Shown in pieces: positions 1 through 35,044 of a stretch of 37,840 nt of DNA. Under the pieces are notes generated by a model, which was not told the origin of the DNA, did not search any database, and was given only the letters and a program-made list of their open reading frames with translations. Both the position numbers and the translations under genes were made by a program. Every line of letters starts with the position of its first letter. Position 1 is the stretch's first letter. Origin of the DNA: an uncultured Oscillospiraceae bacterium. Its GTDB lineage: Bacteria > Bacillota > Clostridia > Oscillospirales > Oscillospiraceae. Where the stretch lies: positions 1-37,840 of the forward strand of contig CALXCQ010000142.1 in NCBI GenBank assembly GCA_944386835.1. The letters run 5' to 3'.

Positions 1-131
1 CCTACGGGAGGGCTTTGCAGCTATTATGCAGAAAGAGGGGGCATTTTGGTAGGTTTTGAGGCGGAAGTATCCAGATGAACCATTGGATATCTTGGATCTT
101 TAGCCACCAAAGGGGAAACCTGGGAGCGCGG
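1..131. other. No clear gene; possible tail of an upstream CDS
   Basis: Two plus-strand frames are open from the left edge. One runs to a TAG at about 50-52 and the other to a TGA at 76-78, so either could be the last codons of a gene cut by the window edge. They are too short to identify a family. The rest, up to the promoter at 132, shows no convincing hairpin or ribosome-binding site. Confidence 0.3.
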
Positions 132-160
132 TTGACATCCATTGTAGAATATGGCATAAT
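132..160 (+). promoter_or_regulatory. Strong sigma-A promoter of the lrgAB leader
   Basis: A perfect TTGACA (132-137) is followed after exactly 17 bases by CATAAT (155-160), with a TG one base before the -10 (extended -10). Transcription should begin near 167. The first good start codon downstream is at 501, so the transcript would carry a leader of about 330 bases that includes an intrinsic terminator at 356-398. Confidence 0.75.
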
Positions 161-166
161 AACTCC

Positions 167-355
167 ATTCAAAATGGGAGATCGCGGGAAATATCAGACG
201 GCATTATGTTAAAAATAGTAGGAAATTCAACAGATTCCGGAAAGGGACTGTGAAATTCTCAATGGAATTCCTGGCTTTGGATACAGGCTCCTCCGTATCG
301 GAAAAAGCGGGTTAGAAGTGTAAGCTTTGTCAGTACCGATTGCCTGTGGGATTGT
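167..355 (+). promoter_or_regulatory. Structured 5' leader, candidate riboswitch or attenuator
   Basis: This is the transcribed leader between the promoter and the terminator. Local hairpins visible by eye include AATTC 254-258 with GAATT 265-269, CCTG 270-273 with CAGG 284-287, and ATCGG 297-301 with CCGAT 336-340 enclosing AAAGC 304-308 with GCTTT 324-328. Bases 240-248 can pair with 358-366 (nine pairs, two of them G-U), which would break the terminator stem. No known riboswitch consensus (T-box, TPP, SAM, purine, fluoride) was recognised. Confidence 0.45.
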
Positions 356-398
356 CCGTCTCTTTTGATACAGAATATCGGAAAGAGACGGAGTTTTT
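356..398 (+). terminator. Intrinsic terminator in the lrgAB leader
   Basis: A perfect 10-base stem (CCGTCTCTTT 356-365 with AAAGAGACGG 382-391) closes a 16-base loop and is followed by AGTTTTT. It lies inside the leader upstream of lrgA, so it either ends a small RNA or works as an attenuator. Confidence 0.8.
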
Positions 399-500
399 AT
401 GGCAATCGCGGAGGGCAGGGATAAGTTTTGGAATCCTGTCACAGATTCTGTGGAAATGTTTCTACTGAGGTTTTCCTTGCCAACTATAGAGGTGAGTTAT

Positions 501-911
501 TTGAAATACCTTGGTCAAATGGCAATTATTGGAGGCATCTCTTTTGTAGGAGAGGCGCTCAATCACCTGCTTCCTCTACCAATTCCAGGCAGTATTTATG
601 GCCTTGTTATTATGCTGTTGGGACTGGTTACAAAAGTGATACCGTTAAAAGCAGTGAAAAGTACGGGAAACTTTCTCATTAGTATTATGCCAATTATGTT
701 CATTGGCCCTACGGTAGGACTTATGGCCAGTTATGACGTCTACAAATCTTTTATTATCCCATTTGTGCTGATATCCCTCATTAGCACGGTAGCGGTCATG
801 GCAGTGACGGGACGAACGGCGCAATTTATTATTCGGATATCAGCCAGAATGAAGAATAAGCACCCAGAGAAATCTTCTGGACACAATAGGAAAGAAGGCG
901 GAGAAAGATGA
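501..911 (+). CDS. lrgA: LrgA/CidA-family holin-like membrane protein
   Basis: A 136-residue small integral membrane protein of the CidA/LrgA family, proposed as a holin/antiholin and, in several Firmicutes, as part of a pyruvate uptake/efflux system with LrgB. The family hallmark LPLPIPGSIYGL is at residues 24-35, and four hydrophobic segments cover most of the protein, with a basic hydrophilic tail. I chose the TTG at 501 because AGAGGTG lies at a good distance upstream and the protein then starts like other LrgA proteins. The in-frame ATG at 399 sits on the terminator tail with no ribosome-binding site. The stop overlaps the lrgB start by four bases, so the two are translationally coupled. 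Expression is probably controlled by the leader terminator at 356-398. Confidence 0.9.
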   Translation: MKYLGQMAIIGGISFVGEALNHLLPLPIPGSIYGLVIMLLGLVTKVIPLKAVKSTGNFLISIMPIMFIGPTVGLMASYDVYKSFIIPFVLISLISTVAVMAVTGRTAQFIIRISARMKNKHPEKSSGHNRKEGGER

Positions 912-1615
912 ACGAATTCTTTGCGAACGTGGCCTATTTTGGGGTTTTTCTAGGTTTGGCGACTTATTTATTCGGCATGTGGGTACAAAAAAAGTGTAAA
1001 TTGGCGGTGGCAAATCCGCTGCTTATCTCTGTAATTATCACAATTTGTTTTCTATTGTTGTTTGACGTTGACTATGAAACATTTCAGTATGGGAAAAACT
1101 ATACTGGTGCAGTAACATTTCAGAATTTACTGACTCCATGTACGGTATGCCTGGCAATCCCGCTTTATGAAAAGATACACCACTTAAAATCACATCCTGG
1201 CGCTATCCTGGGCGGAATTTTTGCGGGAGTGCTGACCAGCGCAGTATGTATTTTAGGGCTATCCATTCTCTTTGGGCTAACCCACGAACAATACGTGACT
1301 TTGCTGCCGAAATCGATCACAACGGCAATGGCTATGGGCGTTACCGAAGAGTTGGGGGGAATTCCGGTTGTTACAGTAGCGGCTGTATCGATTACAGGAA
1401 TTGGCGGCAATGTGATGGCAGTTGCGGTTTTGAAACTTTTTCGTATTCGGGAACCGATTGCTAAAGGACTTGCTTGCGGTACGGCTGCCCATGCCATTGG
1501 CACAGCGAAAGCTCATGAATTGGGAGAATTAGAGGAGGCTATGAGTGGCCTTGCAATTGCAATTGCCGGACTGATGACAGTGGCAGTTGCCACAGCATTT
1601 TCCTATCTGTATTAA
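908..1615 (+). CDS. lrgB: LrgB-family membrane protein
   Basis: A 235-residue polytopic membrane protein of the LrgB/CidB family, the partner of LrgA. Family motifs are visible: LLPKSITTAMAMGVTEELGG in the middle, and the C-terminal block with GTAAHAIGTAKA, followed by a hydrophobic final helix (SGLAIAIAGLMT). Length matches the family (about 230). It overlaps lrgA by ATGA (908-911), the classic sign of coupled translation. In B. subtilis and streptococci such pairs move pyruvate, while in staphylococci they modulate autolysis. The sequence cannot tell which role applies. A strong bidirectional terminator follows. Confidence 0.93.
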   Translation: MNEFFANVAYFGVFLGLATYLFGMWVQKKCKLAVANPLLISVIITICFLLLFDVDYETFQYGKNYTGAVTFQNLLTPCTVCLAIPLYEKIHHLKSHPGAILGGIFAGVLTSAVCILGLSILFGLTHEQYVTLLPKSITTAMAMGVTEELGGIPVVTVAAVSITGIGGNVMAVAVLKLFRIREPIAKGLACGTAAHAIGTAKAHELGELEEAMSGLAIAIAGLMTVAVATAFSYLY

Positions 1616-34573: not shown

Positions 34574-34649
34574 GGGAGCATAGCTCAGCTGGGAGAGCAC
34601 ATGCCTTACAAGCATGGGGTCATAGGTTCGAGCCCTATTGTTCCCACCA
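34574..34649 (+). tRNA. tRNA-Val (anticodon TAC)
   Basis: A 76-base cloverleaf: acceptor stem GGGAGCA with TGTTCCC, D arm GCTC/GAGC, anticodon loop CTTACAA and T loop TTCGAGC. CCA is encoded at 34647-34649. Confidence 0.97.
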
Positions 34650-34653
34650 ATTT

Positions 34654-34727
34654 GGCCCGGTGGTGCAGTCGGTTAGCACGCCAGCCTGTCACGCTGGAGG
34701 TCGACGGTTCGAGTCCGTTCCGGGTCG
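34654..34727 (+). tRNA. tRNA-Asp (anticodon GTC)
   Basis: A 74-base cloverleaf: acceptor GGCCCGG with CCGGGTC (one G-U), anticodon loop CTGTCAC, T loop TTCGAGT, discriminator G. The next bases are CCG, so the CCA end is not encoded and must be added by the CCA enzyme. Confidence 0.96.
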
Positions 34728-34771
34728 CCGTATTGCCTTATGGAGCTGAGCTCTCTAGGTCCGCTCGATAT

Positions 34772-34847
<76 letters not shown>

Positions 34848-34851
34848 TAAT

Positions 34852-34927
34852 GCGGGTGTAGCTCATCTGGTAGAGCGCCACCTTGCCAAGGTGGAGGTAG
34901 CGAGTTCGAGCCTCGTCACCCGCTCCA
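34852..34927 (+). tRNA. tRNA-Gly (anticodon GCC)
   Basis: A 76-base cloverleaf: acceptor GCGGGTG with CACCCGC, anticodon loop TTGCCAA, T loop TTCGAGC, encoded TCCA end. A terminator-like hairpin begins 8 bases later. Confidence 0.97.
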
Positions 34928-34935
34928 TGATAGTT

Positions 34936-34965
34936 AAAAAGGAACGCGCTGAGTGTTCCTTTTTT
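34936..34965 (+). terminator. Terminator inside the tRNA cluster
   Basis: A 10-base-pair stem (AAAAAGGAAC 34936-34945 with GTTCCTTTTT 34955-34964) and a T6 tract, between tRNA-Gly and tRNA-Cys. Only 4 bases separate it from tRNA-Cys. Confidence 0.8.
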
Positions 34966-34969
34966 ACTC

Positions 34970-35044
34970 GGTGCCATGGCCAAGCGGTAAGGCAAAGGTC
35001 TGCAAAACCTTTATTCCCCAGTTCGAATCTGGGTGGCACCTCCA
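34970..35044 (+). tRNA. tRNA-Cys (anticodon GCA)
   Basis: A 75-base cloverleaf: acceptor GGTGCCA with TGGCACC, short D stem GCC/GGC, anticodon loop CTGCAAA, T loop TTCGAAT, encoded CCA. There is no room for a promoter between it and the terminator just upstream, so it depends on read-through. Confidence 0.96.

Follow-up and report, generated by a model that had tools for sequence, protein, structure and literature searches.

Anatomy of a possible transcription attenuator upstream of lrgAB in an uncultured Oscillospiraceae bacterium

Introduction

In Bacillus subtilis the lrgAB gene pair, there pftAB, is controlled at the DNA level, by the LytST system and by the binding of LytT and CcpA (PMC5626966). 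Leader attenuators in general, whether trp-type, riboswitch-controlled or protein-controlled, share a layout: a promoter, a leader, a terminator and the gene follow one another, and upstream copies of the terminator arms are able to form alternative helices. The locus described here has the gene pair of the B. subtilis system together with the order of elements of an attenuator, including a leader of about 190 nt, and it also carries upstream copies of both terminator arms. It departs from both models. Whereas LytT and CcpA bind DNA in B. subtilis, no 5TM LytS is seen in this genome, and unlike known attenuators the locus shows no sensor and no conservation, and its antiterminator is energetically unfavoured. 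No lrgAB attenuator or leader RNA is described in the titles and abstracts found by a literature search.

Results

The lrgAB genes

The stretch of DNA analysed, referred to as the window, is an entire contig (C142) of 37,840 nucleotides from a 2.2 Mb draft genome that is 97% complete. Near its left end lie two genes whose product is a probable pyruvate transporter:

501 to 911, plus strand: lrgA, with a TTG start, the SD sequence GAGGTGAG and a Pfam match above cut-off (PF03788, 98 bits)
908 to 1615, plus strand: lrgB, with a Pfam match above cut-off (PF04172, 235 bits)

The start of lrgA had been placed at 501 in an earlier note on this DNA, and the alignment agrees: LrgA homologues begin exactly at this TTG, which has GAGGTGAG ahead of it. 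An alternative start at ATG 399, to which the frame is open, was rejected; because the homologues begin at the position of 501, the extension of the open frame back to 399 is probably due to chance. The ATG at 399 has GGAG and the TTTTT of a terminator ahead of it.

Two minor features were seen at the borders of this region. The contig opens with CCTACGGGAGG at positions 1 to 11, which we take to be the beginning of a widely used 16S primer site, and continues with other sequence; the match is possibly a coincidence or an assembly edge effect. On the 3′ side of lrgB, a strong symmetric hairpin with A/T flanks (AAAAAAGTGCAACCGGTATCGGTTGCACTTTTTT) at 1634 to 1667 is likely to be a two-way terminator between lrgB and a minus-strand ORF at 2078 to 2512. 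Elsewhere in the window, five tRNA genes are clustered at 34574 to 35041.

Promoter and terminator

Three elements precede lrgA on the same strand:

132 to 160, plus strand: sigma-70-type promoter, TTGACA-17-CATAAT with TG before the −10, predicted to start transcription near 167
167 to 354, plus strand: predicted untranslated leader or short RNA, with its strongest local hairpin at 283 to 347 and no Rfam family
355 to 398, plus strand: intrinsic terminator, with 11 perfect pairs (355-365 with 382-392) and then a U tract to 398

The promoter and the terminator, both read from the letters in the earlier note, stood up to comparison with shuffled DNA. When window positions 1 to 500 were shuffled with dinucleotides preserved, a promoter with at least 11 of 12 matches arose in 5 of 1000 cases, and a terminator as good as the one ahead of lrgA likewise in 5 of 1000. 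Pair probabilities across the outer eight pairs of the terminator were 0.93–1.0. Only 131 bases of contig lie upstream of the promoter. A promoter, a leader of about 190 nt, a terminator and a gap of about 100 nt before the gene, all on one strand, make up the anatomy of an attenuator.

The same order would be produced by an independent short terminated unit upstream (a small RNA, a tiny peptide gene or a relic), with the terminator insulating an lrgAB operon that is read from its own weaker promoter downstream of 398. We regard this arrangement as a serious possibility, with somewhat less than an even chance of being correct. When the stretch between the terminator and lrgA was scanned for promoters, none above 8/12 was found. 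An 8/12 match whose end lies 34 nt upstream of TTG 501 (CTGTCA-19-TCTACT or GTCACA-17-TCTACT) might serve as the weaker promoter, but it is poor and lacks the A at position 2 of the −10.

Folding of the leader and the helix first proposed

The whole-leader fold had a z-score of −1.4, and 20 of 200 shuffles folded equally well, a small advantage that counts against an attenuator. Several small hairpins had been thought possible inside the leader (252-340) and are indeed predicted, the strongest being 283-347 (−17.7 kcal/mol, probability about 0.89). The antiterminator originally proposed uses a further element:

238 to 248, plus strand: antiterminator strand as first proposed, weak; CGGAAAGGGAC, a partial copy of the terminator 3′ arm (379-389)

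According to that proposal 240-248 pairs with 358-366 and thereby excludes the terminator. The complementarity is real, consisting of nine consecutive pairs, two of them G-U, with an energy of about −8.8 kcal/mol, but the pair probability of the helix was 0.000. Forcing it to form cost 18.3 kcal/mol in the full-length leader and 8.2–8.9 kcal/mol in transcripts ending at 372–384, before the terminator 3′ arm. It was favoured at no transcript length tried.

Mimicry of the terminator arms

The leader contains copies of both arms of the terminator:

275 to 286, plus strand: copy of the terminator 5′ arm, CTTTGGATACAG, resembling 362-373 (CTTTTGATACAG)
295 to 310, plus strand: copy of the terminator 3′ arm, TATCGGAAAAAG (296-307), resembling 376-387 (TATCGGAAAGAG)

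These offer a better alternative pairing, which differs from the one first proposed: 295-303 and 307-310 with 356-371, at −14.6 kcal/mol, covering the whole terminator 5′ arm. Its component helix 295-303/363-371 equals 240-248/358-366 in length. An upstream pairing with the terminator 5′ arm at the best energy observed was found in 284 of 2000 shuffles (14%). The observed mimicry was reached in 19 of 2000 shuffles for the 3′ arm, in 8 of 2000 for the 5′ arm and in 1 of 2000 for both arms, and the combined upstream mimicry ranked first among 117 terminators in the sequences compared (19.0, the next being 16); the mimicry was spotted post hoc. Within the 37.8 kb window the bipartite motif GATACAG-N0-12-TATCGGAAA has only two occurrences, both of them in the lrgAB leader.

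Such mimicry fits an attenuator, and equally a plain hairpin duplication. The look-alike arms could be a local duplication of one hairpin (275-307 and 362-387) that does not switch, or two tandem sites for an RNA-binding protein, of which the second overlaps the terminator, an explanation that we consider unlikely. In both copies the 5′ arm comes before the 3′ arm and CTTT(K)GATACAG ... TATCGGAAA is present, as duplication would give, but the hairpin 275-307 is seldom formed (probability about 0.06). With regard to protein sites, the genome encodes one ANTAR protein; an ANTAR leader was nevertheless rejected, as the only A1/G4 hexaloop match lies in the terminator 3′ arm and U tract and the paired hairpins of the ANTAR type are missing. 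Antitermination of the BglG/LicT type at a RAT site was likewise rejected: only GGATTGT at 349 was found, GCAGGCAA was not, and no CAT_RBD protein (PF03123) is encoded in the genome.

Compared with the free fold, the pairing 295-310/356-371 is less stable by 4–5 kcal/mol in transcripts ending at 372–384 and by 12.6 kcal/mol at position 400; it would therefore require a signal or a ribosome. A ribosome could act as in a trp-like leader, where its position on an ORF running from GTG 250 to TAG 315 (21 codons) would set the availability of 295-310 for 356-371. The ORF spans both 275-286 and 295-307, and a ribosome near codons 271–274 would cut the cost of the antiterminator to 1.8–2.8 kcal/mol in a transcript ending at 380. 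The ribosome-binding site is weak, however, the ORF has no run of a single amino acid and no conservation, and an ORF of 21 codons is expected by chance; control by a leader peptide seems very improbable.

Comparison with known regulators and RNAs

The earlier note had recognised no known riboswitch class in the leader, and the Rfam search gave the same answer: no riboswitch, T-box or other leader family scored above its gathering cut-off, and at E values up to 5 the only matches were chance ones to miRNAs (E = 2.9 and 4.6). No tRNA was found in 167-398, and neither a known aptamer nor a regulatory codon run was found in the leader. A 6S RNA (RF00013) was rejected on the grounds that the leader gave no match and that the 6S RNA of this genome lies at C152:11686-11887. 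The lack of a tRNA or Rfam RNA in 167-398, and the location of 6S RNA elsewhere, also weigh against an independent RNA unit upstream of lrgAB. No LytS-type 5TM sensor was detected in the 97%-complete genome, and the usual LytST route may therefore be missing.

Search for homologous leaders

The leader DNA was searched for in the genome itself, in 98 relatives and 400 genomes of the family, and in plasmids and phages, with nothing beyond chance; the 400 family genomes gave five small matches at E ≤ 0.01, where about four were expected. A single-sequence structure model of the leader found no match in 65 lrgAB loci and the 400 family genomes. The conserved structure and covariation anticipated for the leaders of other lrgAB operons were thus not found, there being no homologous leader in the 400 family genomes or the 65 loci. 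Because the genomes compared include none of the same genus, this lack of conserved leaders has low power: it argues against a widespread class, but not against a recent lineage-specific device. It also tells against an independent unit, which is conserved nowhere among the genomes searched.

lrgAB loci of relatives

Where a promoter could be recognised at a related lrgAB locus, its −10 mostly ended 23–64 nt before lrgA, a spacing that favours an independent unit followed by a separate lrgAB promoter and speaks against an attenuator. One of the related loci belongs to a Lachnospiraceae MAG. Four loci (L053, L054, L057 and L062) come from one genus of a different family, and their LrgB proteins are among the closest to that of the window. 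In L053, L054 and L062 lrgAB is directly preceded by a tRNA-Leu(UAA) gene with a promoter ahead of it and a terminator behind; in L057 the same tRNA-Leu(UAA) gene lies further upstream. The first three loci share the order of promoter, terminator and lrgAB with the window, and since in them it encloses a tRNA gene, this order need not mean attenuation. They are a precedent for an independent unit flanked by promoter and terminator, with the difference that their transcript is a tRNA whereas 167-398 is not.

Discussion

We tentatively favour the reading of the lrgAB 5′ leader as a lineage-specific transcription attenuator, which we place slightly ahead of an independent short RNA unit, although its own probability remains below one half. 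Transcription would begin near 167 and, by default, would be stopped by formation of the terminator at 355-398. Some signal would free or mask the upstream RNA; the terminator 5′ arm (356-371) would then pair with 295-310, and polymerase would read on into lrgA. Expression of lrgAB would accordingly depend on the promoter at 132-160 and on this exchange of helices, as we infer from the arrangement of the elements. The earlier proposal of an attenuator is thus retained in part: the anatomy, the lack of another good promoter downstream and the arm mimicry speak for it, while the energetics of the helix then put forward and the lack of a homologous leader in the genomes searched speak against it.

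The further suggestion of a candidate undescribed regulatory RNA gained no support from the genomes and loci compared. The parts are real and the arm mimicry is a modest anomaly, but a new RNA class is unsupported. That 167-398 is an undescribed, lineage-restricted regulatory RNA, imposing conditional termination on the LrgAB pyruvate transporter in a genome without LytS, for example by sensing pyruvate or a related metabolite, appears to us distinctly improbable. A leader that does switch would bring pyruvate transport under control at the RNA level, replacing the LytST two-component system. More generally, a promoter and a terminator before a gene, together with one complementary stretch, are insufficient to call an attenuator.

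Elsewhere, control at the DNA level is suggested by the lrgAB loci L070 and L073, which have in common the palindrome AACTGGTCCTACCAGTT, about 45 nt before lrgA and immediately after the promoter. By analogy with the TGGT-N3-ACCA form of the operators for FadR/LldR-type GntR regulators, the palindrome resembles a GntR-type (LldR/PdhR-like) operator, and it may mark pyruvate- or lactate-responsive repression of lrgAB in the family to which these two loci belong.
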